Shown piece after piece: positions 13,169 through 57,200 of a stretch of DNA of 64,000 nt. The translations under genes were made by a program, and so were the position numbers. The notes under the pieces were generated by a model. That model saw nothing but the letters and a program-made list of their open reading frames with translations, made no database searches and had not been told where the DNA came from. Origin of the DNA: Zopfochytrium polystomum (lineage: Eukaryota > Chytridiomycota > Chytridiomycetes > Chytridiales > Chytridiaceae); NCBI GenBank assembly GCA_025765615.1, contig JAIVFJ010000011.1:434001-498000 (forward strand), in the 5' to 3' direction. The first letter of the stretch is position 1. Each line of letters opens with the position of its first letter.

Positions 13169-13952
13169 GAGAGAGAGAAGAGACAGACCGACAGAGACAG
13201 AGACGGACAGACAGAGGAGGAGCAGCAAACTGCCTCCCAAGCAGCTGACGCGACGGGCCGCCCCCACAACTCACCCTCGATCGCCCCACCCCCACCCACC
13301 CACCCACGCACGAGGACTGCAGCTGCTGAGGGGGGGGGGAAGCGCTTGGCGACGCCCCCATTCACCGGCCCCCCAGTATCATCATCCCATCCGCACACTC
13401 CCATCCTCCCACCCATCCAATCCATCCAATCCAACTTCGCCCTTATCCGCCACGGCCTGCTGAAGCACCCACCCAACCAACCACCACCACCCACCGCCTC
13501 CGCTACCACCGCTGCCTACAGTACTGCCGCCGCCGCCGCCGCCGCCGCTTCCGCCCCTGCGTTATCGATCGCTGAACCCCACCACCCGGCCGCACACACC
13601 TCTCCCCCTGCATCCCACAACCCATTCGCCCATAACATCGGCTCTGCAGCTGGCTGGGTGGTGGTGGCCTGCAGGCTTTCATACAATCACCCAATCTCAT
13701 CCTTTTTGGCCCGCCTTTTTTCATTCAGTAGCCCGCGTAAACAGTGCTTCGGCCACCCGCACCCTGGCCTCGTAAATAGCTACAATCCATCCCGGTCTCT
13801 CCAGATTCCCTACTCCCCCACACACATACGTAAAAACAGACCAGTAAAACCAATCCTCCGGACAGCTTCTCACCGCGCGCTTCCGGCACCGACTTCTCCG
13901 CGCTACGCGATCCTGCCAGCCCAACCCTGCTGTAACTGTTCTTGGCTTACGC
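12779..13952. other. Divergent intergenic region with (GA)n tract
   Basis: This head-to-head gap of about 1.2 kb lies between the methyltransferase (minus) and the villin gene (plus). It carries a GAGA tract at about 13080-13185 on the plus strand, a CCACC-rich stretch near 13280-13310, and a GCC repeat near 13529-13550. Apparent ORFs across the GA tract are repeat translations. An unspliced 5' exon of the villin gene could lie here but was not identified. Confidence 0.45.
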
Positions 13953-16900: not shown

Positions 16901-19345
16901 TTCAGGGTCGGTGTCCACGTCAGAGTCTGACACACCCCTCATTGGACGTGCCGGAAAAGGCCTTGGGGTGCTTTCCACGGCTGCTCCCGCCGCTGCCCCC
17001 GTTCGAAGAAGAGAAGACAGCATCAGCCAGCGGGCGGCCCCGGCGGCCGAAAGCGTGGACGACGATAGCGACGAGAGCGACCCGGGGATGGTTGTGCCGC
17101 CGGCGCTGGACGCTGACCACCCTGCCGTGGTTGCAGGATATGCGGCCCGGCGTCGACGGAGCGGGGACATTGGGGCGCCGTCCACGCCGGCCCTGTCCCA
17201 CGGTGCTGTCGAGCCGACACCAAGGACTAGCCGTCCACCGCTGCCCGCGCCGGCTCAAGGTATAATCGGATTGCGATTGGAGAGCGGCGTCTTTGGCCAG
17301 CCAGGTGCTGTGCCGCATATTTATCAGAGGCACCTTGGTGCCGGCGCAGACGGCGGTGGGCCGCCGCCACCTCCCATGCGACTTTGGAACAACCCGCTCG
17401 TACTTCCAGACATTTCTGGAAACACTATTGTCACAACGACCATCCTGCATTTGGACGACGACGAGGACGACGACGGTGACGATGAGGGCGGAGACGACAG
17501 TGGCGACGTGGAGTCTGCGAAGGCCGCCCAGACGGAGAGCGCTGGTGCAGTCACCTCCATCCACGAAGGAGGCGGTGGCGGCGGCAACAGCGGCAAAGGC
17601 GAGCGCGACTTGTCAACCAGCGACGGCTACGCGGGAGCAGGAGGCGCCAGCGGCGGTGGTGGTGGGAAGAGTGAGAGCACCGAGACACGAACGCGCATGG
17701 TCGGGAGCGGCTTCCTGCTGCAGGTTGCGGCGCGTACGTCGCACGACTCGATCACCAGCTCCGGCGGAGCTGAATCGTCCAGCACAACGTCTGCCGCCGA
17801 TGATGATGATGACGACGACGATGAAGGCGGCGATGTCGACAATGCGGTGCTGCTGCCGGCCGTTGAGTCCCGCGGACGCATTCTGGATGCTGTGGAACTG
17901 GGCGGCTCTGCGAGGTCGATGGCCGCCGCACGACGCGCCCTGTCCCAAGCCTCCTCGTCGTCTTTGTCTGCGCCTTCCTCGTCCTCCCCGCAGCCCGCGT
18001 CCTTGCTGTCGCTGCCCACGCTCGAAGTTGGTGTGCTGGTGCCAGATCGCATTGATGGCGGGGGTGTCGGCGGCGGCAGCAGCGGCGGGGGCATTGGCGT
18101 TATTTCGCGGTCTGCCGGCAGCGGCGGCGGCAACGGCAGTGGCAGTGGCAGCGGCAGTGGCGCAGGGAGCGGCAGCGGGGGCAGCGGCAGGGGAGGCGGT
18201 GGCGGCGGTAGTGGGGCCAGCAGCGCGGGCAGCGCGGGCAGCGCATCGGCGGTTGCGGCGTTCGCGTCGGCCGGCTTGGTGGTGATTCGCGAGGACGAGC
18301 TGATGGAGGCTCCCCTGCTGCTGACGCCGAGGCAGCACAGGTCGCTAACGCGGGATTCCGGAGGTGGTCCACGTCGTGGCGAGAACGGCGATGGCGACGT
18401 GGACGAAGATGGTAGCGACGAGTCCAGTGGGTCTATCTTGTCCACAGAAACGGAGGAAGGCGGAGGAGGCGGCGGAAGGAGTGCTGGTGGTGATGGTAGT
18501 GACGGCGCTCCTCCTGGTGATGGCGACGGTGCGGCTGGCGGAGGCGAAGCGGGATCAGCGCCGAGCGAGCCAAACGAAGAGCCTGGAGCCCTTCCAGGGG
18601 GAGCGGCACCGCTGCCACCGTCACACGAAGATGCCACCAGCGGCGGCGACGGACCAGGTGGGTCTGCGCTTGACAGCCGGCCAGAGCCGGAGCCTGCTTC
18701 GGTGTCGACGCCTGCACGTCTCGGACCGGCGGCGGGGGGCTTTCAGTGCGCGCAAGACAACAACGGGGACGATGATGGCGGCCAGACGCTGCCGCCGCCG
18801 CCGCAGCCGCCACCATTGGCACCAACGGCAACGCCCGATGAAGGGACGAAGATGCAAAATGCATCCACGCAATTGTGCTCGCCCGCAACGCCGTCCGGGG
18901 CGGGGGGAGCGGCGGTGGGATCGGCGGCAGGACAGGCGGCAGTACCGCACTTTGAGCGACAGCCGCCGGGGCTGGCGCGCAGCCGGACGTCGTCGCGCGA
19001 CCGGCGTCGGCCGGCCGCAACGACGACGGCGAGGTCACCGTCGTCCCCGCCTGGCTCGCCGCGGTCGAAGGTGAGGAGGCATCTCTCTCGGTCTTCCTGA
19101 AATCTCTCTGTTTGTCTGTCTGTTTGTCTTGTCTGCCTGTCTGTCTGTCTGCCTGTCTGTCTGTCTCTCCCTCGATCTGTCTTGTTGCTTCATTGCGGTT
19201 CCCTTGATGTTTTTTTATTTTATTTATTTATTATTTATTTTTTTTTTGGTTCTTTGTCTTCCTCTCTCATCACCAATCAATCTCCTTGCAAACAGGCCGC
19301 CCAACTGCTGGACAGAGTCTTCCCCTTCTTCAAAATCATGACCTC

Positions 19346-24391: not shown

Positions 24392-26336
24392 TCAGGGCCG
24401 CTTGCTGGAAGAAAACGACGACGACGTCGTCGACGAAGGGGTGCCTCCGCCCCCCGCCGCCTTGCGCGCGGCGCGGAGCGTGTTGCCCGAGCCGGAGAAC
24501 GTGTTTGGCGCCTTTGTTTAGATTTTTTTTTTGTTTTTTTTTTTTTTTTTTCGAAGGGAGTTGGTTTTTTTCACTGCTCGTTAGCAAAACGAGATAAGGC
24601 CGCCCTGCGCCTCCTCTCGCTCCAAGCAGAGTCCTGCATATTCTTACCGATTCGTCCGCATCGCCGGGCTTCTTAAGTGGGACCACCGGGTATCCTTTTA
24701 TCAAGGTGATCATTTTCAATTTTGTGGGAGGAGGTGTGCATGCGAGCGCAGAGCGGCAGCCGCAACAAATTGCCAATGAAATTATGATTTAAAATACACC
24801 CCGACGACAGATAATTGAAGCTCACCAAAAAACAGCTTTCCGGGAGGCAGCTTCAGGGCTGCCGGGGCATTGGAGCCACCGCTGCCGCCTGCTGTCGTGG
24901 GGGCGGCCGAGCTGTGAAATCAAAGCGCGTGAGCGTCGATTTTTGTTTTCTTCTCTTCTTTTCTTTGCAGATCGTGTAAAACGCCGTTGCCGCCAAATCC
25001 TCACCTCCGTGAGCCGTTGGCAGTGGAACTGCCCGCCGCGGCCGAGGACGACGATGACGACGATGACGAAGACGAGGCAGCCACCGAAGACGAAGAAGAC
25101 GACGCCGGCTTCAGCCGCTGCCCGGACCCGCCGAACGGAACAAACTTTGGCGCATCTTCGACCTTGTGCTCGTCGACGCTGGTCGTGGATTGGTGCAGCT
25201 GGGGGGCGGAGAAGTAGCAAGCGCAAAAGAAAAAAAATATGGGTCAACACCAAACCGCGCGCCCGAGCCCAACGACGAGACTGACCGACTCCGGCTTTCT
25301 CGGCAACCTCTCCGGCTCCTTGTACCCCAACGGCGGCGCAAAGTCGACCTCCAGGTCGGTCTCAATGACCGAGATGCCCTTTCCGCCGGGCTTTGTCTCG
25401 ACGATCAGAATGTCGTAGAGCTTGCTGTTGTACTTGATGGTGATGATGTCGCCCTCGGTCAGCGCCGAAAAGTTGCCGATCGCGCGCTCCAGGACGGCTT
25501 TCGGATCGGAAATATCGAGAAAGTCGACAGACTGCGGCTGAAGTTTGACAAACTGGCCGAGAGGCAGCGTCACGTTTTTTACCCGGACGAGGCTGCCTTC
25601 TGCGAGGAGAAGAGTCGACATCATCTGCCCCATTCTGGTGAGTTTCCAGGCACAGCAAGAAACTAACAAAAAATAAAGGAATCGCGAAAGAAGGTACTGT
25701 ACCCATTGTGGCAAGTAAACCTTGCCTTCTTCAGCGGTAAACTCGAGCACACCAGCGTGTGACGACTTCTCCTTGTGCTGCTCGTTCACCAGTTGAAACT
25801 GCATGGGGTAGGCAATGTTGAGGGTGGCTGTTGTATTGTGTGTTTTTTTAATGTTTGCCGGTCGGGAACGCTGCTCGTCCCAAAGAAGAGGAGAGGAGAG
25901 TTGCAACTTACAGAGTTTGGCGAGGGCAGACGGCGGTAGAAAAACTGTAATACGTGCAATGTGTGTGAGCAGTGGTTTAACAAATACCCGGCGCCACTAA
26001 AACGGCTGACCCCCACCCCCCCGCCAGAGACTCAACTCTTTCCCCCGAAATTCGCGTCGTCTCGTTCGTGCCCGGGCATCATTGCCATCGAATAACACCG
26101 AAAGTACTCGTTCTAAAAGAAAAGGAGAGCAAGAAAAAGCGGGTTAGCCATTTGAAACGAGCCCCTGCGGAGGCCAAAGCGCCGACCTCCGACTCAAAAC
26201 CGGGTTAACTTACAAACCCGCGGCGCTGTGCGCCAAATAACCCGCCCATCCCGCCGCGCCCAAAGCCGCTGGGGCCGTGCAGCGTGTCGAAATCGTCGTT
26301 GTTGAACTTTAGGCCGGTGCAGGGGGGAGATTGCAT
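24392..26336 (-). CDS. UFD1: Ubiquitin fusion degradation protein 1 (UFD1)
   Basis: Nine exons (26214-26336, 26037-26112, 25912-25944, 25703-25827, 25286-25624, 25005-25198, 24826-24911, 24648-24694, 24392-24511) give 380 residues. The N-terminal double-psi-barrel is clear: NEYFRCYSMAMMPG, FLPPSALAKL, YPMQFQLVNE, HAGVLEFTAEEGKVYLPQW, then FVKLQPQSVDFLDISDPKAV, GDIITIKYNSKLYDILIVET and VDFAPPLGYKEPER. The C-terminal tail carries KFVPFGGSGQRLK, LPPGKLFFGYPVVP and FSGSGNTLRAARK, as in UFD1 (the p97- and NPL4-binding part). UFD1 pairs with NPL4 as the Cdc48/p97 adaptor for ubiquitylated substrates. An Ser-rich repeat lies between GQRLK and LPPGK. One exon is only 33 bp. The start is the ATG directly before QSPPCTGLKFN. 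Confidence 0.95.
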
Positions 26337-27137: not shown

Positions 27138-28454
27138 TCACTCCGCCGCGAGCTTCTCCTTCACCAGCGCGTCGGTAAAGTCCCACAGCTTCTTTGCGAG
27201 CGCCATGTCCGTACCCTGCGGGATGGTCGGCTTGGCCAGCTTCGCGATCGGCACAAAGTACTCGCCCTTGTACTTCTTTTCAACAATCTCGGGGTCCGTC
27301 GCGAGGTAAAGAGACGTCGACGCGCCTTCGTCCTGGGCTGGTAGTTTTGTTGGGTTTGTTGGGTTTGTTTGTTTGTTTTTGTTGAACAGGGAGTAGGTAT
27401 GCGTGTGCGTGTGTGTTTTTGTCGTTGTGAAATCGGAGATCTGTCAGCCCAGCGGACGAACCTGAAAACAAAAAACAAAAGCAAATGAGAGATCAAGAGG
27501 CAACACCTACAAATGATGTTCGGGTTAACCCTGTAGTAGACGCCAACCATGAACTTCATGACAACGTTGGAGGCAATGTGGCGCGAGAGTTCCGTCTGAA
27601 TGATGCCCGGGTGCACCGAGTTGACGTAAACGTTCTCGACGCCGCGCGCCTCGAGATCTGCAGCCAGCTGTTTTGCGAAGAGGATGTTTGCGAGCTTGGA
27701 CTGGCCGTCTAGATTTGGCAGGTGAGTGGTGATGGGAAGGTGATGATGATTAATTGGTTATTCGCCGAACAACTACTGCTCGCCGAACGAGTGATCGCCG
27801 CAACAGGCACGCACGAATGCCTGCCGATGCACGATCACACGCGCGCACGCACGCAAATACGCAAGATCGCACGAACGAGCGTTCGCGCGCGCACGCACAT
27901 GCATTCACGTACCAAACGATGCACGCGCGCGCGCACGCACTCACACTCATTCACGCGCAGTAGGCAAGCACGCACGCACGCACACTCTACACACTCGAAA
28001 ATGAAATACAAGGGAGCCCCAACTCACACGCTGTTGTGGGGTTATACGATGCCTTGTCGTTGATCTTGTCGAACCGGATTCCCTCCGGGGCGGGGGCCTT
28101 GTCGTGCAGAAGCGACGATAGTGAGACGACCCTCGCTTCGCCGTCCTTTGCGGCGGTGCGCTCCAGCCACGGCAGCAGCCTGTTTGTCAGGTGAAAGTGC
28201 GCGACGTGGTTGGTAGCAAACTGCGTCTCGATGCCGTCGCGTGAGAGGGCGAACGGCGACATCATGATGCCGGCGTTCAGCACCAGGCCGTGGAGCGCCG
28301 GGTGGGTCGCCATGAACTGGGTCGCGAACGCGTCGACGGATTTGAGGGAGAGCAGGTCGAGGTGCATGTAGTGGACCGAGGGGTTTTTGGTCTCGGACTG
28401 GATCGCCTGCACTATTGGGAGCGTTTTTTCCTCGGAGCGGCTGGCGATGATGCT

Positions 28455-28493
<39 letters not shown>

Positions 28494-28739
28494 CGTTCCG
28501 TTAGGTTGGGAAAGAGAGGGGTTAGAGGCAGGAAAGTTGGGAAGAGGAGGCGGACACTTTGATCGCGGCGGCGGTGTCCTCCCCTGTACTCACACGACGG
28601 CGTTCTTGCGGGCGAGCTCGCGGGCGGTGACCCTGCCGAGGCCCGTGTTGCCGCCTGTGACGATGAACGTCTTGCCGGCGAGGTCGGGGATGCGGTCGAA
28701 CGTCCACGTCGTCGCCGTCGTCGTCTTTTGGCCCGGCAT
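27138..28739 (-). CDS. Short-chain dehydrogenase, retinol-dehydrogenase/WWOX-like
   Basis: Four exons (28594-28739, 28028-28452, 27511-27708, 27138-27337) give 322 residues with exact phases. The Rossmann motif is DLAGKTFIVTGGNTGLGRVT (TGxxxGxG), followed by IIASRSEEK, the LVLNAGIM motif (NAG), a TNHVAHFHLTNRLLP stretch, the VVSLSS serine, the catalytic YGQSK (YxxxK), and VNSVHPGIIQTEL. Length and motifs match the classical SDR subfamily of retinol dehydrogenase-like NADP(H) enzymes. The substrate cannot be set from sequence; lipid or aldehyde carbonyls are likely. Intron 1 contains a ~39 bp poly-T/poly-A tract, and a CA repeat sits right upstream of the start. Confidence 0.9.
28455..28493. 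repeat. Poly-T tract in SDR intron 1
   Basis: A run of about 39 T (A on the coding strand) sits just before the 3' splice site AAACAG of the SDR gene. On the sense strand the acceptor is preceded by poly-A rather than a polypyrimidine tract, which is unusual for splicing. Confidence 0.9.
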
Positions 28740-33331: not shown

Positions 33332-36300
33332 ATGGAGGCAGGCTCGGAGATCGTCGTTGTCGCCGGCGACGCCGCCGCCGCGGCAGCGTCCGTCGCGAGC
33401 CCCAACGGCCGATACCACCTCGCCTTGCTCGAGGACGGCAACCTCGTTCTTCTAAAGTCGTCTTCTACGCGTGCCGGCGTCCCCACCACTGCCACTACCA
33501 CCAACAATGGCACCATCATCAACAACAACCGCATCGCTTGGAGCACCAACACTGCCTCCGACAACCCGGAGCTTGGCTTCGTCCTCGCGCTGAGGGGGGA
33601 TGGCAACCTTTGCCTATACCAAGGGGATAAAGTACCTGAAAACTTGCGCTGGAGCACAGACACTTGGCAGCATGGTGAAGGCCACGCATATCGCCTCTCG
33701 GTCCAAGACGACGGAAACATTATCCTCCGGAAGGACGAAGCCGAGGTTATCTGGGAGTCAAACCCTTCCCCGAGGATCCTTCCCTCCAATGTCCTCAAGT
33801 ACGGCGAAACCATGCGTCGCGGCGACGCCCTCGTCAGCCCAAGCGGCCAGTACCGTTTCGTGTTTGAAGCCAACAGCGATATAGCTCTGTACGACCACGG
33901 CGCCGATGGCAGCAGCGCCAACCGAATTTGGTCTGCGAAACTCGACGGAGCGTTTGGCGATGTCCTCAAAATAACCGAGTCCGGTAGCTTTGACATGTAC
34001 ACGGCGTCCGGAAGCACGTGCCGGTGGAGCACCAGCACGAACGCGCACGGTAAGGGCCACAAGTACCACATAGCTGTGGAGGACGAAGGTCGGGTCGCCC
34101 TCTTCAAAGACAACGACTCGGTCATATGGGAAGTGAGCGCGGCGGTCGGACTCTTTTACAACACCCCGTTGTGCACCAGACAGACGGTGCCCAGCCCGTC
34201 CGGCCGGTTCCACCTCGTACTCCAAGAAGACGGCGACCTCGTCCTGTGGGATCGCGTCTCGGGGTCCCGCGCTTGGTCCACTAGCACCTTTACCTGCTCC
34301 CCGCCGCCGGACTCTCTCGTGCTGAAACGGAACGGCGACCTGTGCCTTTACGCGGGCGACAAAGTCTGCTGGAGCACCGACACTGGGCGGTTTGGTGAGG
34401 GTTACTGCTACTGCCTTATGGTCCAAGACGACGGAAACATTGTGCTACACAAACTCGGGGACGCAGTCATCTGGGAATCGAACCCGCTCCAGCACTTTCT
34501 CCCGTCGAACGTGCTCGAGCGGGGTGCGACGATGAAGCGCGGCGATACCCTGGTCAGCCCAAACGGCCGCTACCGATTTGTTTTCGAAGCCAACAGCGAC
34601 CTGGCGCTGTATGAGGACCCCGTTGGCGGCGGTCCTTCCCAACGTCTCTGGACCGCCAAGACGGACGGACTCTTTGGGAATTTGATGACCCTCGAGGCAA
34701 ACGGCCATTTCCGCATGTCCACGTCTCCAAAGGGAAAAGTTTTGTGGAGCTCCAACGTTTTCAAGCACGGCACAAACCACGAGTATCGCATCATGTTGGA
34801 AGATACAGGCCGAATCGTCACGTACAAAGACGGTGCTACCGTCATTTGGGAGGCGAGCTCCGCCGTCCTGTGTCGGGAGACGGCTTTCAAACCTGGCGAA
34901 AGTTTGACGAGTCTCTCGGGCCAATTCCAACTCACATTACAACGGGACGGCGATTTGGTCATGATTGATAGAACAACAGGATCGCGCGTGTGGGCGACCA
35001 ACACCACTGGATTTTCGCCTCCTGCCGACCTTCTCGTCGTGCAAGAAGATGGGAACGTGGTCCTTTACACTGGCAAAAGAATCCAAGACAACTGCCGGTG
35101 GGCCACTAACAAGTGGCCTGGCGCGGAACACGACTATCGACTCTGCGTGGGGGACGACGGCAACATCCAGCTCATCATGGACGGCGTGGAGACCATATGG
35201 GAGACGAAACCGGTCGCGCGAGTCCTACACTCGAACATTTTGAAACGCGGCGAGTCCTTGAGGCGTGGCGAGTCGATTGTGAGCCCCAGCGGTCGCTACC
35301 GCTTCGTTTTCGAGGCCAACAGCGAATTGGTGCTTTACGATGACAAAACTGCAGACGGCGGCAGTCCAAAGTGCGTCTGGTCCGCAAAGACTTCGGGACG
35401 CTTTGGAGAGAGGCTGACCATGCAGGAAGACGGCAACCTCTGCATGTACACCAATTTTGACGAATGTCGCTGGTCTTCCTACACCTGGGGACACGGTGCC
35501 GGACCAGACTATCGCCTCGAGTTGGAAGACACGGGTCGCGTTGCGCTGTACAAAAACAATACCACCGTCATTTGGCAAGCAGATTCTGACCCAGTACTGC
35601 CAGTTGGTGTTAAGTTTCACCGAGGAGAGACCCTACCCAGCCCGTCTGGTCGCTTTCAGCTTTTCTTTCAGAAGGATGGGGACCTCGTTTTGTGGGACAG
35701 AGACATTGGAGCTAGGACTTGGACCAGCAATACGGGTGGCGTGTCGCCCCCGACCGACCTGCTCCTTGTGCAAAAGGATGGGAACCTTTGCCTGTACGCC
35801 GGAGAGGCGGTGTCAAAGAACTGTCGGTGGAGTACGGCTACTTGGGTGTACGGGCTTGGCAAGTACAACACCCTCTCGGTGCACGACGACGGTAACATTG
35901 TGCTGTTCAGGCATGGGGAGGGCATTCTATGGCAGTCCACTCCTCCGCCAAAGCTCCGACCCTCATCTTCTCTCCTTCGTGGGGAGTACATGCAGCGCGG
36001 AGAGTACATGGTGAGCCCGAACGGTCGCTTCCGCTTCGTCTTCGAGGTCAACAGCAACCTTTGCCTCTACGACCATGGTGAAAGCAGCGAGGACGGCCTC
36101 GAAATCTCGCCGAAAGTCGTGTGGTCAGCGATGACGGAGGGCCAGTTTGCCGATCGCTTGACGCTGCAGGACGACGGCAATATCTGCATGTTCAAGGCGA
36201 GCGGAAAGGGTGAGCGATGGGCTTCTAACACAGACATGTACAATCGAGGCCACGATTACCGCCTCTCCATCGAAGACGTGGGCCGTGTCGCACTTTACCT

Positions 36301-39300
36301 TGATGATGACAAGGTTATTTGGGAGGCGAGCGGCACAGCAACAGGCCGCGTCCGCAAGGGCAGCGAATCGACCCTGGACCCTCCGCTGCGCCGCTTCGAA
36401 GCCATCTCGAGCCCGTCTCTCCGCTTCCACCTCCTCCTCCAACAAGACGGCGACCTCATCCTCTGGGACCGGTCCACCGGCACCCGCGTCTGGTCCTCAA
36501 ACACCGCTAACTCGCTCGCAAACAGCCTCACCCTCCGCAGCGACGGCACTCTGTCCCTCTACGCAGACCTCGGCGGGAACAAGACGAGGCAGTGCTGGAC
36601 GTCCGGAGGCGCCTCCCCGCGGTCGCCGCCAAGGTCAGACAATCGCAACTATGTCGTCTGCGTCCAGGACGACGGCAGGGTGGTCGTCCTTAGGGACTCA
36701 ATCGACGTTGTCTGGTCGAACGACGATGTCGCCGAATCCGCCCGCGGCGACGGAATGGGCGCGCGTCTCAATTTGATGCCCCGCTCCTTCCGTCACCGCC
36801 CAGCGGCGTTTGTCTTAAACGACCGCGTCGCGCCAAAGAGGCTTGTTAACCTCCATACAATGCGCGTCGAGCGGCGCGACGAGGGCAAAGAGCCTCCCGG
36901 GGGGTGGGAGGAGTATGCCGCCGTTTCTTACGTGTAAGTTCTGTTCACCCTCCTTAGCAATGCCAACAAAGCACCTCATCTTGTCTTTCCCTTTGCCCAG
37001 ATGGGGTTACGTCGAGATGCATGATGGGTCCAAATATGGCGTCAACTGGCCAGTGCCGCACGCAGCAATTGAAGAACTTCAATTTAAACTGGACGTTTGG
37101 TGAGTGTATTCAACCGTAATGGACTCAACTGAATTCTCAAATAATCTTTGCTTTCTTTTAGCCGGGACTGCGGCTACAAGTACGCCTGGGTTGATGTTCT
37201 TTGCCTGAACCAAGGCTCCGACGAACAAAGCAAAGCCGAGCGGTACTCTGAGCTCCCACTGATGGGCTCCTACTACGAACACGCGCGCGGCTGCTTTGCC
37301 TTTGGCCCGCCCAAAGAAGTGATTGACGTTGGCGACGGGCCGGCCGCCTTGCTTCCAGATTTCTCGGTCGTCCGATCGATGGGCAAGGCCGCGTCCCTCG
37401 AACACGTCCTCGCTCTCACCGCCGAAGTGAACCGGCTGTCCCGCAAGTACAACTTTGGCGAGAAGTGGACTGGCTTCAGCCGCAACGACGCTGGACTCAT
37501 CACCCGCTGGTGCGATACCAAGCTCCTCAAGATGAACCTCAAGTCGGAGATGGAAGCCTTTGCACGCGCATCGGTCGCGTCCTCCAGCGAAAAGGATGCT
37601 GCGGTCGGAACGGATGCTATGGCGCTCGTTGTGAGCACTCTGAGAAACCTTTTGGAGCTTTTTGCCAGAAGCGATTGGTTTGGGTGAGCTGATTTTTATT
37701 TTTTCTTTTTGTTTTGCGTGGGCTGGCATCTTTTTCTTTTTGAATTCTCCACAGATGCAACCGTCATTAACTGTACCGAATACATTTGGCTCATAAGCCG
37801 CATTTGGACCTTCCAGGAGTGCCTCCTCCCCGACAGCGTTGCGATGGTTGTGAAAATCATGGATCGAAAAGAAAACAAGATTGTCCCGTGCGCCGTCGAC
37901 ATGGACGCCATGGCACTGGCCGCCCAGGAGCTCCAGTTCAAGGGCCTCGACATTCTGAACACCCAGGCATTGCGCTCCGATATCGTCAAACTGAAAGGGC
38001 TTGTCATGATGCACGTCAGCCTCGGCCAAGGGCTGCGCCAGAGCTATTATCTCGAAGATCGCTTGTTTGGTTGGTAGTTCACTCTACATTATTTTTGTTT
38101 ATGTTGGACTTTGAGGCCAACTGCTTGACAACTCCTTTCGGTTCAGGCGCTCTGGGTCTCCTTCGTCGAAAGTTCCCATTCCGCCAGTTATATGGGTCAC
38201 ATCCGAACTTGCTTAACGCGCAGGTTGCTTGGCATTCAGTAAGTTTTGGTTACCACGAATATGAACCGGAGAAAGAAACTTAGACCACACCTCAGTCGCA
38301 CCACGAAGACCACATTGGACTCGAGAGCATCCTCCTTCAGCGCGACTGGTCCTTCCTGACCGGCCGGTTCCCCGCCGGAACCAAGATTGGCGCCGGCGTT
38401 CCCGTCCCAAAAGCATGGCTCGCCCCCGACGGCTTCGGGGTCGAAGCCCGAGTCATCCAGGTCGCCAACCGCTACCGGCCCAGCCAGCGCGCCCGCTGGG
38501 TCTGGGCGAGTCCGAAAATGCCGTCCATGACCGGCCCCGCCGTTCTCATGCCCTGCCGCCGGCTCGATCGCAATGAGCGCCCGCTCGTCTTTGTCGTCAC
38601 CAACCCCGCGTCAGGTTTGACCCTCCAGGTCAAGAGCAAGTCGTGGAACTCGGAGACTGTCCTCTCCGTTGGCGCGCGGCTGCCCACGGATCTGAACGAG
38701 ACGCAACGGTTTGAGCTGCGCTTGATTGAGAAGGGTAGCCCCATCCACAAGGAATCGGCAATACAGGGACGCATTGTTTCGATGTGGCACTCGAGAGAGC
38801 TGGCCAGAGAGAAGGAAAAAATCACCGAGGTATGGAGATTAAGGCTTCATCTCCGCTGCCGGTTTATTGACTCTCAAACTTCAAATCACAGTCATGGTTC
38901 ACCCCAGAAGACGACGAAGAGGCGTTCAACGAAGGCGTCATATTTGATTTGACAGAGTGCTTCCAGCCGCTGTCTGGCGAGACGACCATCGACCTGCGCA
39001 GCGGCCACTACCGCGCAGTTCCCGGCCGCATCTTTGTGGGCGGCGACGCGTTCCTGGCAACCACGGAGTTTGAACTCGCCAAGTCCCCGCACCTCGTCAC
39101 CAGCCGCGGCGGCCCCAAGAACGGCTGGGACCGCCTCTGGCTGCTCAGCGAGGCCCCCGAAGATTTTGACACCCGCGGCATCACCGACAACGACTGGGCC
39201 ACCGGAATCCGCTGGACCGCGTTCCTCCTCCGATCGTTTGGCGTCACGGGGCCGGAGGACGCGGATGCCTATGCGCGAGCCGCTGCGTTCTCAATACAGA

Positions 39301-41817
39301 AGGCCGCGTCCGCCACTCAGGCGGACTTGTACTCCGCCCGCACGGCTTTTGATGAGAATGCCATCATCGCGTCGTCGAGCCACACCAAAGAGATCCAGCC
39401 GCCGACCGACGGTCCGCTAAGGTATTCCTCTTTGAACCTCGCATTACTCCACCCTACTTTCCTCCTCTCATTTTCCAATCGACAAAGTGCTAATTTGTTC
39501 CCCACCTTCCCATCCGTCACAAGGAAGATCAAACTGCGCGTGAGCCAAACAATCGGCGACGAGGAGTACTTCTGGCAAGCCGTGGGCAAGGAGCGCGGGA
39601 GTCAGATCACTCTCAGCGAAGACGTGCCCACGCGAGACATCCAGCTGTTTGAGCCAGAGCTCGTCGACGACCCGGCTGCATTACGGCAGAAAATGTCTCC
39701 GGTCGTGGTGTCGCCTGACGCGCCGCCGCCGGTGCTTGTTCGGTTGAAAGCACCTTCGGGGTTATACTGCGAATGCTCGGATAAGGTGTGCACTTATACG
39801 CTTTATTTCCCCCTTCCAATTCGTTTCTTCTCATATTACAACAATTTTTTCGTGAAAGATCCTTCGGCAGGAATTGCGAAAGGACCACGACGAAGAGGCG
39901 TGGGAAGCCGGGCAGATATTCGACCTGTCCGAGCTCCTGAGTCTGAATCTTACACCCTTGAACGTTCCCTGCTACCAAGGCCACATCAAAATGGCAAGCG
40001 GGCAGCTGCTGTACAAGCCAGTCAAGCGTATGGCGGACGCCGGTTTCACTATTTGGTATGACAAGCGCATCACGCTGAAGCAAGGAAACTACCTCTGGCG
40101 GCTGTTCGAATACGTTCCCGAGACACTCCCCCTCCCTAAGCAGCTCCCGCGAGACTTTCCCGTCAGCGACGGCTTTTTCGTGCGCGAGCGCGTCGAGAAC
40201 GGCAACGTCCTCGGCTTGGCATTCTCCAAAACGGACAACGACGACTGGTACGCCGCCGAGATCCCCGGCATGTTTAACCTGCGCACGGACGAGCTCGTCG
40301 TCAGGCTCGGAAACACAAAGTTTGGGTGGGACTCGTGGAACTCCGGCACCTACCAAATCGACGCCAGAATGGGACTCGCCGAGCTCAAGCCCGGATCTCA
40401 GAACCAGTCGTTCCGCGTGGAGCTGGTTCAGGACCCCGTCGGCCTCTTGCGAGCGGTTGGTTTTTCGTGGGCAGGGGATCGTCCCCCGATGCTGGCGCGC
40501 ATCCACTTGAGCAACGAGCGTCTTTCCTGCCAGGTCACTAAACATCAGGTAGGGGGCCATGACGATGCTTCGACGGACTCATTGCTTTATTAATTGGACT
40601 GTTGCTCTTTAATTGTTCGTCACATTAAGGGAATGATCCGATCGCTCAGAATTTCTGACGACGTGGAGGCGTGGTACAGCGGCCAGATTTTCGACCTCAC
40701 CAGTGTTTTGGACCGTAAATTAACGACGGGGAAGCCGCGGAAAGGAAGCATTCGCGTTCGCGGAAAAGACGTGATCGTTCTTGGCGACGTCAACAGCCGA
40801 TCGCCCGTCTCCCTGTCGAGGGGCGGGCAACGCAAAGGCGAGCACTCTGTCTGGACTTTTGAGCTCCGGGCGCCGAAGAAGGCACCCAGCAAACCCGACC
40901 TGAGCTCTCCGTTACTGACGTGGGCGCTGCACCGCTTCGACAAGACGGACGCTGCGGGGTCGCGCTTCTTGTCGTACCTCTTCTCGCTGGAAGACAGCAA
41001 CGGGACCGCGCGGCTTGGCGCCGACCGCCGCGCTGTCGCACCGCTCTCCCAGCAGCCAGGCCGGGAGCCGATCCCCGCGGTCGTCGCAAACTCGTTTGCC
41101 TGGTCGACCACGGTGCCAGAGTCAACCTGGGACCGTCTTTTCCAGTTCCGTCTGCAGCCAGTGAACACCGGCAGCGGCGGCGCATACCACCACCTCGAGC
41201 GCGAAACCGCTCGTGTCCGCGGACGTATCGTGTCGCGGGCGAATCCTTCGCTGTGCCTCCAGGCCGCGGTCGCCATGGTCCATGCCGCAGAATCAAGCTC
41301 CGAGCAGCCGCATCTGGCCGAAGAACCCTTTCTCGCAGCCGCAGCGACCACTACCACATCCCCCCCCACCGCCATCACATTTGCCCCATGCATCGGCGAC
41401 CCGGCCGCGGCTCTCCGCGCCGGCCAGATTTTTGACCTCACGGAGCTCGCCCACACGGGCGCCGGCCGCATTTTTGTCTGCGACGGCTCGGTCGGTGCCG
41501 GCCCCTCCCGCGTCCTGCAGTTCGGCGGTGACGGCAGCGATGCAGCAGCACCCGTTGCAGTGCCTGTCGGCGCCGCCTCGTCGGGCTCCGGCGAAAGAGA
41601 CTCGCGGCAGCAGTGGCGTCTGGCGGCGACGGGCGTGGCGTCTAGCTGGCGCTGGGACGGCGCGGCGCTGATCTTAGGCGCGGACTCGATGCGGGACGAG
41701 ACGGACACCGCTTTGGTGGACCATCTGCTCGGCGACGAGCCGGTCGCGCCGCGCCCACTCGAGCGCATCCTCGTCGCCGTTGTCGACGACGCGGTCCCTG
41801 AGACGGTGACTCGTTGA
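33332..41817 (+). CDS. Giant bulb-lectin repeat / HET-domain fusion protein
   Basis: Ten exons: 33332-36933, 37001-37099, 37162-37683, 37798-38069, 38147-38223, 38296-38829, 38892-39421, 39524-39785, 39859-40548, 40630-41817. Total 7776 nt, 2591 residues, every junction in phase. Residues 1-1140 hold nine bulb-type (D-mannose-binding-like) lectin modules alternating two forms, for example FHLVLQEDGDLVLWDR and YRFVFEANSDLALYE, with a ~241-residue double period. Residues ~1194-1420 form a HET domain: YAAVSYVWG, YAWVDVLCLNQ, MGSYYEHARGCFAFG, RIWTFQECLLPD. Residues ~1700-2591 contain four copies of a module marked AWxxGQIFDLxEL (near 1716, 1980, 2209, 2459). No signal peptide or membrane segment, so a cytosolic protein is expected. 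HET domains trigger programmed cell death in fungal allorecognition; linking one to a lectin array suggests a recognition/effector protein. The ligand and outcome are inference. Confidence 0.85.
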
Positions 41818-41985: not shown

Positions 41986-42146
41986 GGACAAGTAACCCTC
42001 TTGAGATGCACTCTGACATGGACTTTCTCTTGGTATGGCGTGCGGTGCATGCCGCATCTGCACTTTATATTGTGTGCAAGTCGCAATATACGAACTGTCA
42101 GGAAGAAAACGGACATATTCAGACAACCCTACCCAAGCAGCAAAAC

Positions 42147-42218
42147 GGGGCTCGCCGGGGATTGAACCCGGGACCTCCTCCACCCGAAGGAGGAATCATA
42201 CCACTAGACCACGAACCC
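42147..42218 (-). tRNA. tRNA-Pro (anticodon CGG)
   Basis: On the minus strand the 72 nt read as a standard cloverleaf: acceptor stem GGGTTCG pairing with CGAGCCC (one G-U), D-loop with GTCTAGTGGTATGA, anticodon arm CCTCC-TTCGGGT-GGAGG with CGG at loop positions 3-5, and T-arm CCCGGGTTCAATCCCCGG. The anticodon is CGG, proline. No intron interrupts the anticodon loop. Spacing and conserved bases match eukaryotic tRNA-Pro genes. Confidence 0.93.
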
Positions 42219-42649
42219 ATGGAAAGAAGTATGATTTGCTGGCAATCCAACCTTAAAATTTAAGGATCGGATGTAGACAGAACCTTCGCCACTATGGGTA
42301 GGAGGCGCAATATATGTATCTCACGCCCATTTGCCCTGCCGTTGGCTCCATGAAGGGGATGCAGTGGAGGCGACAGAGCCGGTTTGCAACTGCACGTGGC
42401 TTTGACTGTTTGTCTTTCATGGGCAAAGAAGACGCAGATTGTAAGCTCATCGAGCTCGCCCGCGTCTCCAGCCATGTACTCCGAGTGCGCGTCACTCTTT
42501 CTCCAGTGGGCCGGTCTTCCGCGTGCCTTCTGCATGCCGTTCGACCTCACTCCGCGTCCGCGCGTGCGCGGACTGCCTTCAACGCGGAACTGGGCACTCG
42601 CTCTGAGTGGGGGACGAACCCGAAGATCTGGTTGCAGCGTTCCCTTCGT

Positions 42650-43827: not shown

Positions 43828-44939
43828 TCACACGTACTGGTAGTTCGCGTAGCTGCACAACGGATGATCAGTGTCACGTCTTGTCATAGAGCAAATTGCT
43901 CTCACCCGTACTGGATCTTGTCCCTGTTGATCCGCCACGCTTCCCCAAGCAGGCTCTCGCTCGCCCGCTCCCGCCGCGCGATTCGTACAAATAGCAGCGC
44001 CGAGAACACGATCCCGATAAACTCGACCACGCCCAGTCCAACACCGGCGCCGCCAATGAGCGAAAGGGAGGAGCGGAGGGCGTCCAAAAGGACGGAGTAG
44101 CAGGGGTTTGGGTAGCCGAGGGTAAGCGGGCAGTCGGTCGCCGGCACAGAGAGGGTGGTGGGGGTGCGGTAGCCGCAGCATTGGAACTGATATGCAGTGG
44201 GGGAAAAGTGTTGATGATCAACGAGGGAAATCAAAGGAAAGAAAAAACATTTCGGTGGGAGGTAACGAACAGTGTGTTCGATTTGGAGGATCGTGTTCGT
44301 TGACGCCGTCGTGTTGTCCGCGATCAGCTTCTCCCACTGCCTTTCAACGAGATCGGCCACCTTTCCCAAGGTTCATCAGATTCGAATATTTGCATAAAGT
44401 TAGTAAAGGACCCCGGCCTCACCGCGTCTCGCTTCACATACGCCGCACCGCCGACACCCAGCTCCAGCACCACCAGTGCACATAGTAGCCCAAAGTACGT
44501 CTTGAGCATCATGCCCTTCTCGTTCGCCGCACCAAAGCACCCGAGGAACGATACGACCACAACCACGATCCCGACGCCGAGGGAACCCGCAGCGATCGTA
44601 GTTGAGAGGTGAATCAGGTCACCGGTGGAGGGTGCTGAGACTTGAAGATAGGCGCCCGCGGCGATGAGAAGGATGCCAGCGAGCTAGTGGGGAGTATTTT
44701 TCCGTTGATCAGTGGGAGGGTGGGGATGACGGCAAAGTGGGTACGCGAGTTTTTGGACGAGGAGCGAGGAGTTGAGGAATTGGGGCTAGTTTTAGGAAGG
44801 GGCGAGAAAAAGCGTTCCACTTTACCAAGGCGAGAAAGTTGATGAAAAGCAGCAAGTTCTTGACGATCATGAACCCGCCAACGGTCCAGAAGGTCTCCTT
44901 GTTGAAAGAGAAGGTAGTGATGCGCGAGAGGAAGGGCAT
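43828..44939 (-). CDS. Tetraspanin-family membrane protein
   Basis: Five exons (44826-44939, 44423-44683, 44271-44360, 43906-44186, 43828-43852) give 256 residues with exact phases. Four hydrophobic segments: GGFMIVKNLLLFINFLALVK (TM1), LAGILLIAAGAYL continuing into the small loop, GIVVVVVSFLGCFGAANEKG (TM2 with the conserved GCFGA turn), TYFGLLCALVVLELGVGGAA (TM3), and GVVEFIGIVFSALLFVRIA (TM4). The large loop carries the diagnostic FQCCGY (CCG) motif plus further cysteines (DCPLTL, NPCYSV). Tetraspanins organise membrane microdomains; in pathogenic fungi some are needed for penetration structures. The last exon is only 25 bp (ends YANYQYV); reading through its donor would stop one codon later, so the C-terminus is slightly uncertain. 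Confidence 0.88.
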
Positions 44940-45182: not shown

Positions 45183-45401
45183 TCTGTCTGCCTATCTCGC
45201 GCTCATGGTTCGATTTTCTTTTACTCAAACCACGCTGTTCACAGCGGCATGCAAAACGGAAACTCCTCGGAGCAGGCCTTGGTAGTTTCAAAGACTGCCC
45301 AACGCCAGGTGATGATTGGCTACTTTTATTTCTCAATAAAATGAGAAACAAAAGGAAAAGGACAAAAAAAAATTTTGTGAAAGACACGATCTTCGCCGGC
45401 T

Positions 45402-47195
45402 TTAGGGACTCTTAGTTCGCTGTGAAGGCGGTGAGGCATCAAAGTGGACCAGGCTGCTCGAAGATGGCAGGGTGTTCTCCTTACGATCTGGAAAGAGGGC
45501 CGCAGCTTTAGCTTTCACCTTGCTGAAGCTCCGAGCAGTTGGGATTGGCATTTCGCATGGGTCTGTGCGAATAGATTTTGTTTGTTTCTTCTCTCCTGCC
45601 GATGACTTAAATATTTTCGGCAGGCGGGATTGTGACCTCAAATCTTCCTCTGCAGTCTTATCAATATAGGTTTTTCCTGATGATACTCTTCCAATAGAAA
45701 ATCCATGCTTTTCATTGGGTATGTTGACATACTTTTCCGCAACCAGAACAGCATTGACTGATGACTTGAGTTCTTCTGCATTTGATTTATCATTCCTTCC
45801 ACATCCACCAGACCTATCCTTTTCCCGCACATGATTGAAGGTTTGTTCAACTGGTTTTGTTCCAAGGCTGCGAGTATTCAAGACTGGGAAAGGAACTTCA
45901 TCCTTTTTCTTTGCATCTTCTGCATCCTGAATATTCTCAGGTAGGCTCAGCAAATTCTTGAGAAGAGCTTTCAAAGCCGCTGCATTCATTAGGACCCCCA
46001 CACAACTTCACTGTTCAGACCAGAGAATTGTGACTTTGTTGCAGTTAGAGGGGATGACAATTCGCTTCCAAGCTTTGCTTGGAAGTAGTGCATGACTTCA
46101 TCACATACTGCCACCTCAGTGTCAAATGCATCATAAAAGCGAGCAATCATGCCAGCAAATTCTGCCTCCTTGGGATAGCCGAGATCAGTAAGCTGTTTGA
46201 TGACTGGTTTGCTAATGCCAGCTGTCCTTGCTCAACATCCATTGCATCATGATCCCACCACTTTCTTGGAAGAATTTTTGAGTCTGAATCTGATTCTGTT
46301 ACTTGTTTCCACGCTTCACTGGGGCTGAGATCTGCAAATTCTTTGAGCTTGAGAAAGATTCGGACCAGTTGTTTGCACTTTAGGTGAGCTGGGTCCTCAA
46401 AAAGGTCAGCAAGTGCTTTCCAGATGGATAATGCTGGTTCTTTGGTGGAATGTGAAGGTCTTTCCAAATGTCCTGTCCAGGAAAGTGTTTCACTTCAAGG
46501 CTTGTTGCCTCCACATCAAGAAAGTCATTCTTCATGTCTTTGAGCAGAAAAAGCTCCTTTGATAGGTTTGCCCTGCTTCCTGACTGCATAAGTTGCTGTT
46601 TAAGTATTTTATAGTCTGTGAGGTGCCATAGACAGTCTCGCAGTGTGCAATCATTGGCAAGCTTGTTACAAATGTCTTCAAGTCCTTCCATTTGACATAA
46701 CCCATCCACAACAGAAGCAAAGCTGGTTCTGCAAAGCTTTTCATACTCCATTCTTTGGCCAACTGCTGCAGTGTGCTTACTTACTTGAATCCATTTCCTC
46801 ATCTCTGCAGAGCCACTGTCATTCATTTTCAGACAATCCTTGCCAGATAATATGATTGATGTAACGGACTTAAGAGTCATTTTGTGCTGCTGAATTAAGC
46901 CTGCTGCTACTTTCTTGGCGTTCTTCCATATATCTTTGTTGGCTGTTTTGAAGCCATGGAGTGCTTCTCTCACCTTCTGTTCTGCAAGACCCTCCTGCGT
47001 TTTGGCAGAATGGAGATTCCTTGTTGTTTCAAAAAGATTCTGTGCAGGCAGTAGGGGTGTTGGCTCAATATCAGCAGTTGTTAGGTTTGAGCAGCCTGGA
47101 TGAATGCTTGCACAGACGCTGAGAAGTGGTCTAATTTCAGCAGTGGGATTTGAGTTGTCACCAGACCAAGCACTGGTGCTCAATCTTTTCCGCAC
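45402..47195 (-). pseudogene. AT-richer island with broken ORFs of unknown family
   Basis: Minus-strand coding potential changes frame at least twice. Segment one (46380-47195) reads ...LHGFKTANKDIWKNAKKVAA and SVTSIILSGKDCLKMNDSGS; segment two (about 46147-46467) has PSEAWKQVTESDSDSKILPR; a third frame near 46010-46220 has AGMIARFYDAFDTEVAVCDE; segment four (45402-46001) is a charged tail with DAEDAKKKDEVPFPVLNTRS. Base composition is visibly lower in GC than the neighbouring genes and the codon bias differs. No transposase, kinase or other motif was recognised. Frameshifts without matching splice sites suggest decay of a single ~590-codon gene, perhaps from a mobile or foreign source (inference). 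Confidence 0.45.
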
Positions 47196-54232: not shown

Positions 54233-57200
54233 TGGTCGAGTTCAAACTGCTGGGAAATTCAAGCAGCCCACCAATTCTTGCATGGGCTTCTCTGTTCGTG
54301 GCTCTTCACCACGCTTCTCCAGAACACGCCCTGGCACCATTGGGGTGGAGATAGCCTTGGCATCCTCCATCCAAATCTGGTCAGGAACTCGTGGAATTTC
54401 GATGAGTTGCTCAATCGAATCTCCCCCTTCTCTTGGTCCTGTTGCACACCGATTCCAATACAGTGCTCCAGCCTGCCCACATCACGCAGCTCAAAAGTAG
54501 CGTTCAGGTGAGTCCAGAACTTCTCAAAGTTTGCCTTTGCAGAGGCATAATAGAATGTCAGCATATCATCTGCAAACAGTAGGACTGCCATAAAGTCTGG
54601 ATTCCCTAGCTCGCCCTTTAGGAAGAGGCAAGGGTCGTGCTTCGATGGTCAGAATCCATTCTCCTCCAACCACTTGCGAGTGGTCTTGTACCAGATCCGC
54701 CCAGTCTGTTTTGTCCCATACAAGGCCTTCTGTAATAGGCAATAGAGCTTCTCCTCAATTGGCCAAAATACCTCATATCCATCCAGCTGTTCCATATAGA
54801 CTTCCTCATCCATTAGCCATTCAAGTAAGCTGCACAAATATCTCTTTGGTGAATTTCCATATCAAACTCCAGAGCCAGTACAAGCATCAGCTGAAAAGTC
54901 TGTGCTCGTGCTGTCGGCGAGTATGTCTCAGTGTAATCAAGTCCATAAATCTGGCTGAATCCTTGCCAACCAGCCGTGCCTTCCTCTCCAACAAGTTTCC
55001 ATCTGCGTCTTTCTGCCTCTCCAGGTGCCACTTTGACCCAATAGGTTTGCGACCTGGTGGGAGTGATGTCCATGTCCCATATTCGTCAAGTGTTTTCATC
55101 TGCTTATCCATAGTGGCTTTCCAACTCTTCCATTCAGGGTCACATTTGACCTCTGCAATGGAAATGAAAGCAAAGTTTGCTTGCCCCCCAGTTGCTTTCT
55201 TTCACTTCTTCTTGCGTTCCAGGAAATCACGTACTGCTTGTTCTTGCTGAGTACGCTCACGGTCTTGTTGCATCTGTATGCGCTCGCTACGGTACTCCTG
55301 TGGTGAGTGGGGTGGTGAGTGAGGTGGTGATGGCTGACTCACAGGGGTGCTTGGTTGTTCTGTTGACGGCACGCATACTGGCGAGCCTGGCTGTGGACTT
55401 ATTGCTGCATTTTCCCACGCTTCTGAGTCTGTATCACTTTCACTCATACTCTCACTGTCTCTGCCTGCAGCTGGTGCTCCCCCTTTGCCAGTGAGAGGGA
55501 CGTCATCATCATCCAAATCAGATCCTGTATTGGAGTGATGACGCCTTTGGCTTGAGTGTGAGGAAACAGTAGCTTTCGAGGTAGAATCGCTCAGGTGACC
55601 AGTGAGAGTCTCGTCAAACCGCACATTTCGAGCGACAAATATTTCGTTTGTGGAAGGGTTCAGAACATTGTACGCCTTTCCACCTTGTGCATATGATAGC
55701 ATGTGCATAACCCGACTCCGCTTATTCAACTTGTTCTTACCAGTCAAATGCTCAGCAGGATAGCGAGCCCATCCCAGGCCCCAAATACCCATATGCTCGC
55801 CAAGTCAGGTTTGATTTGAGTGAATAGCTCTATAGGTGTGAGAGAGAGTCCCTTTACAGGCAATCAATTACTCACGTAAACAGCAGTTGCGTGAGGCCAC
55901 CACTTCTTATCCATCTGAGCATCAAGCTGGGCTGAGCCTTCTTGGTCCAACAAATTCCTGTTTGCAATTTCCGCTTTTCCATTCTGCTCATGCTCATAAG
56001 CGATAGGAGCTTGCAGTGTGACTCCAATTTCTTTCATCTTGTCTGCAAACCACCCCAGGTAGAATTCTTTTTGCATTGTCACACTGAATAGCTTTCAGCG
56101 TCTGGTTGCATGCTCGCTCTGCCCATCGGAGCCACGGCATAAAATTGGACAGTATATCCTCCCCTGAATGGCCCTTCATGGGAAAGGCAACCTTCAGATC
56201 AGAGAAGTCATCTGTTAGGACTAGAGCCATCTCCTCGCCTTCAACACCTTTTGCCTTGATTGGTGTGAAATCCATGTGGACCAGGTCAAGTGGATGCTGT
56301 GCTCTGGGGTTCTTGGATTGTCAAAATGGCAGGCGTGTAAGCTTGCGTGCTGACACACATCGCATAGTGAGTCTGACTCTGGTGCAATGGGCTCAAATCC
56401 ATCCACCATTCCTCAAGCCGCTTTGCCACATCATGCGATGTGTGGCACAGCCAGCGATGTTGGATGTCTGCTATCAACAGAACCATGCTTGTTGACTTTG
56501 AAGCTGTAGAATGCTTCCTAGCAGTTATCTGCATCTCCAGATTTCGTCCAACAAGCTTCCCAACAAGTACTTCAGCATTCTTTGTCTGATACGCAATGTG
56601 CTCCCCCTTCCCATGCAACTCAAGGCCTGCAAGGGTGAGAGGTGTGTGGGAAACTAGATTGGCTGTGATGTTGGGGCAGTATTGTACTCCCCGCAGTGTG
56701 ACTTCCACCACTTTCCAGACGAAATTGTTGAGTCAAATACAACATTCCCCTCAGCAGCAATCTTGAGTGGTTTTCCATCTCCAATAGTACCCTCATCCGA
56801 CATTTCCCTGTAGGTGCCTGAACCAAAGAAACAGGGGTCGTTTGTGAGGTGGTATGATGCACTGCTGTCATGGTACCATTCGTCCTTGCTTGGTACTCTC
56901 GACTTCACTGTGAAAGCATAGCGTGTGTCTAATGCGTTCACTTCGCTCTTAGCTTTGGTGAGTTGATCACCTTGCTTTTGTCCTTTTCCTGCTGCACCAC
57001 CACCTTTTGCCCAGCAGTCCTTGCGAAGGTGTCCAGGCTTGCTGCAATTTAAGCAAGTTTGCTTCTTCTTGTCTGCTTTGGATGCAGTGAAAGCAGCGGA
57101 TTTTGGCAACTCCTTCTTTGATGCACCTTCAGGACTTTCTGCCTTGAAGCTTGTGCGTTGTGCTTTTTTCTCGTCAGTGCATTCGCCACATATGCCACCT

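Follow-up and report, generated by a model that had tools for sequence, protein, structure and literature searches.

A chytrid HET-domain protein with two different lectin-type arrays in Zopfochytrium polystomum

Few gene families of fungal immunity are as abundant, or as poorly understood, as the HET genes, and those named as characterised in the available parts of the literature come from ascomycetes. According to the excerpts of two reviews, the HET domain alone suffices for cell death and is TIR-related, and allorecognition is the role of only a small fraction of HET genes (PMC10197012, PMC12881547). In Podospora anserina, the BH protein of the het-B locus (about 622 aa) combines a HET domain with HAD and a fruit-body-type lectin fold. 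The available portion of that report states that the C-terminal lectin fold sets allorecognition specificity, and that the HET and lectin-fold arrangement occurs in 13 of the 132 HET proteins of this species (PMC10890737). The WD40 repeats of HET-NACHT-WD40 (HNWD) receptors are described, in the excerpted text, as strongly conserved and in concerted evolution (PMC12881547).

Here we describe a chytrid protein that couples a HET domain to two different lectin-type arrays, and whose HET-repeat core is common to a second chytrid. If this is correct, HET proteins coupled to lectins are not confined to ascomycetes, and different lectin folds may have been coupled to HET by lineage, as if the sensor were interchangeable. 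The Zopfochytrium protein offers a concrete and testable candidate for the way in which fungi other than Dikarya recognise non-self.

Gene model and domain order

The DNA studied (the window) is a stretch of 64,000 nt from Zopfochytrium polystomum (GCA_025765615.1, contig JAIVFJ010000011.1, positions 434,001-498,000, forward strand), and all positions below are counted from its first letter. The features are as follows.

33332..41817, + strand: whole coding region, 10 exons, 2596 aa; translation identical to GenBank protein P0001 letter for letter
33332-36933, 37001-37099, 37162-37683, 37798-38069, 38147-38238, + strand: exons 1-5, annotated model
38296-38829, 38892-39421, 39524-39785, 39859-40548, 40630-41817, + strand: exons 6-10, annotated model
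38239..38295, + strand: intron 5 as annotated, donor GTAAGT
33338..36775, + strand: nine bulb-type (B_lectin) domains, residues 3-1148, all in exon 1 (Pfam, 4e-40; alignment of the nine units)
36815..38559, + strand: HET homology region, residues 1162-1617, exons 1-6 (Pfam HET; alignment with Blyttiomyces P0002)
38578..39164, + strand: repeat 1, residues 1624-1798, predicted beta-trefoil (structure model)
39165..39413, + strand: segment with ITDNDW, residues 1799-1881 (BLASTP, start against Blyttiomyces 565-595, 39% over 33 aa, E 0.004)
39414..40122, + strand: repeat 2, residues 1882-2059, trefoil-like by alignment (unit alignment; profile match 1975-2001, 6.2 bits)
40285..40881, + strand: repeat 3, residues 2114-2285, trefoil-like by alignment (unit alignment; profile match 2190-2258, 9.3 bits)
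40909..41634, + strand: repeat 4, residues 2295-2536, the most diverged, trefoil-like by motif order only (FDL motif at 2468; profile -4.3 bits)

P0001 is DFJ73DRAFT_956964 of Zopfochytrium polystomum (2596 aa, GenBank). The initial annotation had proposed ten exons in a single frame: its 7776 nt and 2591 aa are reproduced in one frame, and all introns between the ten exons are GT-AG. Its exon-5 splice site, however, is 15 nt off when compared with P0001. Ending exon 5 at 38238 instead of 38223, with the donor being the GTAAGT at 38239 rather than a site at 38224, gives 7791 nt and an exact match to P0001. Around this donor region, the residues QVAWH of the Blyttiomyces relative agree with the Zopfochytrium protein. 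The frame of the model has the fewest stops, or ties for the fewest, in every exon (the one stop in exon 10 is the terminal one). At third codon positions, GC is 0.72-0.80 in eight of the ten exons and 0.50 in exons 2 and 5, the two shortest, and the GC of the introns is 0.34-0.48. Retention of intron 7 (102 nt) would keep the frame open, and its support comes from the splice sites and the annotation.

Exon 1 has an open frame of 1203 codons, compared with 357 for the longest open frame across 20 shuffles of the window. Since this frame holds the nine lectins together with 39 residues from the start of the HET homology region, the lectin-HET join is independent of any splice. The earlier reading of the locus as one gene would have been put in doubt by transcripts ending between exons 1 and 2, but such an end would cut the HET domain itself, since HET homology begins in exon 1. 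A two-gene reading was rejected on this ground, and the single-gene model is that of P0001. Pfam, searched with the entire protein up to an E of 1, gave no match to NACHT or NB-ARC, in line with what had been claimed, and neither a signal peptide (also reported absent) nor a membrane segment is evident by a crude test, the highest 19-residue Kyte-Doolittle mean being 1.38.

The HET domain and its relatives

The HET domain (PF06985) scores 50.6 bits against a cut-off of 22.5, with the best Pfam stretch at residues 1195-1278, and the three blocks expected from the initial annotation are at residues 1194-1203 (EYAAVSYVWG), 1241-1251 (YAWVDVLCLNQ) and 1409-1415 (RIWTFQE). Glu 1415 of the R-x-W-T-x-Q-E block (codon at 37817) is conserved in ten of 11 aligned HETs, which include eight from other loci of the Zopfochytrium genome. 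The suggested relation of this domain to TIR folds was not reproduced. An AlphaFold2 HET model made from four sequences has a pLDDT of 32.2, too poor for a TIR comparison. The 11-HET profile matched no TIR chain among the PDB sequences, and flagellin alone was returned (E 0.74); a two-sequence HET profile matched no PDB sequence.

Two hypothetical proteins of Blyttiomyces sp. JEL0837, HDU76_001101 (P0002) and HDU76_001096 (P0003), have a HET domain and ricin-B-related repeats, four in P0002 and two in P0003. The Zopfochytrium HET region is 33% identical to that of P0002 over 487 columns (E 2e-64), a long insertion occupies the same position between the HET blocks of the two, and the C-terminal repeats of both proteins are of the same ricin-B-related kind. 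Residues 565-595, the Blyttiomyces counterpart of the start of the ITDNDW segment, sit between HET and the repeats there. Unlike the Zopfochytrium protein, P0002 and P0003 have no bulb-lectin match and only about 90 residues ahead of HET. A search of other chytrids for the same domain order, as had been suggested, recovered the HET-repeat order in Blyttiomyces but not the bulb lectins. In the searches made, the full bulb lectin-HET-repeat architecture was found in one species, Zopfochytrium polystomum, and it may be young or idiosyncratic.

The Zopfochytrium genome has at least 29 HET places, 28 from the search plus that of the window, which the exon-by-exon search missed; intron-split HET genes are undercounted because the search works in this way. 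Among these, and with at least eight B_lectin and at least 72 RicinB places, only the HET of the window is within 15 kb of any listed lectin place. The lectin array and the C-terminus had no TBLASTN match at 1e-3 in any of the 20 loci compared out of the 28 other HET loci. Of 14 single-exon open frames at HET loci scanned with Pfam (1e-3), 12 gave a match to HET and to no other family, and two gave no match. Within these comparisons, no second HET-lectin fusion was found. Other B_lectin places are C1, C160 and C514; the open frame at C1 carries ricin-B lectins, not HET, and what we take, reading by eye, to be a metalloprotease-like motif.

Two lectin-type arrays

The nine bulb-lectin modules of the initial annotation are supported by the Pfam score for B_lectin (PF01453; 137 bits against a cut-off of 32.4, E 4e-40) and by alignment of the array, in which the nine units are recognised. 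The domains are of two types that alternate (ABABABABA), with identities of 30-47% for A-A, 40-53% for B-B and 21-36% for A-B pairs (21-53% overall). For the first 523 residues, matches among the PDB sequences include pyocin L, putidacin L1 and GNA-type agglutinins. The canonical mannose site of bulb-type lectins is QxDxNxVxY. With three sub-sites per domain, the full motif is present in one of 27 aligned sub-sites; Q, D, N and Y are kept at three, in the adjoining domains 5-7, and this polar quartet is absent from 24. Given this single intact site, sugar binding is doubtful, including the mannose-type glycan binding proposed earlier.

The C-terminal region, previously recognised as repeated but left nameless, has four FDL-centred units and is a second lectin-type array. 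Judged by sequence comparison, the four repeats are diverged relatives of ricin-B-type lectins, with a predicted beta-trefoil fold (repeat 1 by model, repeats 2-4 by alignment). A profile of the Blyttiomyces repeats scores 45.6 bits on the protein, compared with 1.9 for the best of 200 shuffles. The model of repeat 1 is a beta-trefoil (pLDDT 77) that matches non-lectin trefoils no less well than lectins. With Pfam Ricin_B, the complete protein gave no match up to an E of 1 and repeat 1 alone gave none at 0.01, so we term the repeats ricin-B-related rather than ricin-B members. A search of PDB sequences with the repeat profile returned three weak rows (best E 0.06), and the trefoil assignment therefore leans on the homologues in Blyttiomyces and on the structure model. 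A hallmark of ricin-B lectins is that each domain has three QxW-type ends. Picked by eye, such ends are intact in 7 of 12 cases in the Zopfochytrium protein versus 18 of 18 in Blyttiomyces. The possibility that the C-terminus is a new domain was considered and rejected in favour of diverged trefoils. Repeat 1 matches beta-trefoils, and the presence of an actinoporin-like fold elsewhere in the protein is compatible with the match list.

Possible function and comparison with known systems

We suggest, with about even confidence for and against, that the protein is an intracellular receptor whose lectin-fold arrays bind a non-self ligand, upon which HET is clustered and activated and regulated cell death follows. 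In this scenario, the nine bulb lectins and the four repeats would bind the ligand, by analogy with Podospora BH, and binding would activate HET, presumably by clustering. Activated HET could then bring about regulated cell death, as tested ascomycete HET domains do. The protein probably acts in the cytosol, given that no signal peptide or membrane segment was seen. It is likely that sensor and executioner are in one chain; cell death and an NLR-like logic are what we infer for this protein. Degeneracy at most of the canonical mannose sites makes mannose read along the whole array a less likely ligand than a protein, a glycoprotein or a sugar bound at just a few sites (domains 5-7). We lean towards a virus, bacterium or parasite as the non-self rather than another strain, because the reviews, as excerpted, give most HET genes no allorecognition role. 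In favour of the proposal are the domain architecture with its match to P0001, the lectin-HET join within exon 1, the Blyttiomyces relatives with their shared repeats, the trefoil model, the precedent of Podospora BH, the sufficiency of HET for cell death in the excerpted reviews and the lack of a NACHT match. The proposal is weakened by the poor HET model and the lack of TIR matches to the HET profiles, by the divergence of the lectin units (21-53% alike, unlike the WD40 repeats of HNWD), by the single intact sugar site among 27, by the equal match of the trefoil model to non-lectins, and by the finding of the full architecture in one species.

A possible but rather unlikely alternative is that the arrays are a scaffold, which holds or oligomerises the protein or binds an internal partner constitutively, with a regulatory and not lethal HET output. 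However, the Q, D, N and Y kept at three sites in neighbouring domains 5-7 may hint at retained binding, and the lectin fold of Podospora BH sets specificity, according to the accessible part of the report (PMC10890737). We consider it more doubtful still that the protein is a true glycan sensor, with bulb lectins reading glycans, either mannose-type or from bacterial surfaces, that enter the cytosol when the cell is damaged or invaded. The B_lectin match at 4e-40, nearest solved relatives that include lectin-like bacteriocins and mannose agglutinins, and one full site with three polar quartets would fit such a role, but the quartet is missing at 24 of 27 sites. A strict allorecognition (het) gene governing fusion between chytrid strains is quite improbable. 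HET domains occur often in the genes for fungal allorecognition, yet few HET genes have that role in the excerpted reviews (PMC10197012, PMC12881547), and no PII-like Pfam match was found in the 20 scanned of the 64 other window ORFs of at least 120 codons, a partial test. That two or more genes were wrongly joined, or misassembled, hardly seems credible: the window and the GenBank protein may share one assembly, and intron 7, between repeats 1 and 2, can be retained without a stop, but the lectins and the HET start have the 1203-codon frame in common, exon 6 contains the end of HET as well as the beginning of repeat 1, and the HET-repeat order is seen again in Blyttiomyces.

A broader and more tentative scenario is that chytrids possess their own lineage of lectin-HET receptors, free of NACHT and based on a HET-trefoil core, which ascomycetes would have matched independently with a different lectin fold. 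The Zopfochytrium core might then have acquired another sensor array, unrelated to the first, and two ligand classes would converge on one HET death domain; we regard this as less probable than not.

Plant G-type lectin receptor kinases have a membrane topology. With their S-locus-type domains, they resemble the Zopfochytrium protein in having a bulb-lectin-type domain in a recognition receptor, but in the text available they are receptor kinases without HET (PMC12355970). Arabidopsis TIR-lectins such as AtPP2-A8 also pair an effector, there of the TIR family, with a lectin domain in one protein, although, in the excerpted account, theirs is a Nictaba-type lectin with a true TIR, in a plant (PMC10329053). 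The HNWD NLRs HET-E/D/R, as far as the excerpts describe them, share with the protein a cell-death HET and a repeat array in one chain (PMC4986451, PMC12881547), whereas the Zopfochytrium protein has no NACHT or WD40 match, and its repeats are old and diverged. Podospora BH also has HET and a C-terminal lectin-type fold in one chain. However, in the part of the report available, the HET of BH is N-terminal and is accompanied by one actinoporin-like lectin fold (PMC10890737), whereas the HET of Zopfochytrium is central (from about residue 1162), preceded by nine bulb lectins and followed by four predicted beta-trefoils. A BH-type protein would also have a PII-like gene next to it; none of the 20 neighbouring ORFs that were scanned gave a PII-like Pfam match.

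The initial annotation regarded the architecture as undescribed. Among the matches listed, no B_lectin-HET fusion is described in the open-licence PMC literature, where PF06985 and PF01453 are not mentioned together, but proteins with HET and a lectin fold are known in ascomycetes, as the accessible part of the Podospora report states (PMC10890737). The combination of HET and lectin is already known, and what is new is the presence of two different lectin-type arrays flanking HET, their size and the chytrid host.

Gene model and HET domain

The ten-exon model of the initial annotation proved largely correct, in that its exons, which lie in the window (C11 434001-498000, within an 80 Mb genome), join into 7776 nt that translate to 2591 aa with no internal stop, but one donor had been misplaced. 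Once this donor is moved from 38224 to the annotated 38239, the genomic translation is identical to DFJ73DRAFT_956964 (2596 aa; Zopfochytrium polystomum, Chytridiomycota), and the residues gained have counterparts (QVAWH) in the aligned Blyttiomyces relative. Eight of the ten exons have a third-position GC of 0.72-0.80, exons 2 and 5 have 0.50, and the introns are GC-poor (0.34-0.48). In the model as first drawn, retention of any one of introns 1-6, 8 and 9 leads to a stop ahead of the annotated end. Retention of intron 7 (102 nt, between C-terminal repeats 1 and 2) adds 34 residues in frame, and thus its removal rests on splice sites and annotation.

Pfam confirmed the predicted HET domain (50.6 bits, cut-off 22.5), with residues 1195-1278 as the best-matching stretch. 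Homology with P0002, a HET-repeat protein of Blyttiomyces sp. JEL0837, spans residues 1162-1617 (33%, E 2e-64). Given that exon 1 ends within codon 1201, the lectin exon carries 39 residues of this homology, including just the first six residues of the Pfam stretch. A long insertion between HET blocks is common to both proteins. An alignment of 11 HET domains (these two, P0004 of Aspergillus felis and eight encoded elsewhere in the Zopfochytrium genome) has nine invariant positions, and Glu 1415 is conserved in 10 of 11. Published accounts describe HET and TIR as related, with a conserved Glu as part of the relation (PMC9815663, PMC4986451). It was not reproduced here: HET profiles matched no TIR chain among PDB sequences, and the HET model was of low confidence.

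The bulb-lectin array

Pfam matched B_lectin in the protein (4e-40), and alignment resolves the nine bulb-lectin domains originally proposed, in residues 3-1148. They are of two types in alternation, with identities of 30-47% within the first, 40-53% within the second and 21-36% between types, a pattern suggesting that the array arose as a unit of two domains was duplicated again and again. Against PDB, residues 1-523 hit lectin-like bacteriocins and mannose agglutinins (26 sequences, E up to 0.01), and a PQQ_2 match also lies inside the array (6.8e-9, best stretch 466-565). The full QxDxNxVxY, the sugar-site motif of these lectins, occurs at one of 27 potential sites (residue 571). Its polar residues are kept in three, at the second sub-site of domains 5-7, and its D and N in ten. 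Because the sites are degenerate, it is unlikely that mannose is read along the whole array.

Relatives and genomic surroundings

Three protein searches were made, each restricted by length range and shared words. Among 7977 candidates, the matches were the protein itself and P0002; searches of 7994 found P0003, also from Blyttiomyces, and the A. felis HET protein P0004 (E 3.7e-4). The domain order sought in other chytrids therefore recurs in part: HET and repeats are present in Blyttiomyces, and the full architecture was found in Z. polystomum only in these searches. Of 23 pattern stretches in a bacterial and archaeal collection, a single one codes for a relative; it comes from a metagenome-derived genome of Deltaproteobacteria. 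Searching the Z. polystomum genome with HET and C-terminus gave 12 matches, ten being the gene itself and two weak HET hits. The lectin array lacks introns, whereas the following 4.9 kb has nine, and the ~90 residues ahead of HET in P0002 have no Pfam lectin match. From this we infer that the HET-repeat core is older, with the bulb-lectin array added at its 5' end.

P0002 and P0003 are each reported on a contig 33103 bases long, their gene numbers (HDU76_001101 and HDU76_001096) are close, and they are likely a local HET-repeat cluster differing in repeat number. Elsewhere in the Z. polystomum genome, some HET places agree exactly in score and in profile range (C109, C134 and C123; also C334 and C71), which suggests recent duplicates or haplotype copies.

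Neighbouring features in the window
25247-25996, minus strand, UFD1
27164-28589, minus strand, short-chain dehydrogenase
42147-42218, minus strand, tRNA-Pro
43905-44372, minus strand, tetraspanin
55205-55804, minus strand, match to retroviral polymerase, SH3-like (6.1e-12); probably a copy or relic of a retroelement

The 1750-codon open frame at 13848-19097 (plus strand) had no Pfam match at 0.01. Pfam NACHT places number at least 86 in the genome, all over the cut-off, 13 of these only with neighbours in frame (with 88 of 187 candidates scored; 11 of 14 control genomes also gave matches in this search, three of them over the cut-off). Many sit in open frames of more than 1000 codons, and the nearest are just outside the window (C11:427140-427604 and C11:499870-500337). 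On C344 and C99, a NACHT place (45293-45817; 229553-230077) has a weak RicinB place below cut-off (42064-42240; 233131-233316) ~3.05 kb upstream on the same strand, with identical geometry; the two may be a lectin-NACHT gene and a copy of it. An open frame on C1 (L014:571-2577) combines strong ricin-B lectin matches, a sub-cut-off B_lectin match and HExxHxLGLAH, spotted by eye and presumably metalloprotease-like; places on C160 and C514 are spaced likewise.

Comparison with known lectin-effector proteins

The initial annotation knew of no description of this exact architecture, a statement that needs qualifying. HET proteins with lectin-type folds are already known, making up 13 of the 132 in P. 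anserina and 4 of the 65 in N. crassa (PMC10890737), and plants have TIR-lectin proteins (PMC10329053). Among the open-licence matches listed, we found no published account of two different lectin-type-fold arrays flanking one HET, of 13 lectin-type domains with one HET, or of a chytrid setting.

Viruses are a conceivable threat to Zopfochytrium, nothing more, since a mycovirus survey prepared dsRNA from Z. polystomum strain WB228 (PMC7482067). Podospora BH shows that recognition specificity can be determined by the lectin-type fold of a HET protein, in this case through an interaction with a PII-like protein that is proposed to be direct (PMC10890737). HET by itself is able to kill fungal cells (PMC10197012, PMC12881547). 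By analogy with both, the lectin-fold arrays of the Zopfochytrium protein would likely be the sensor and HET the effector, with activation perhaps occurring through clustering.
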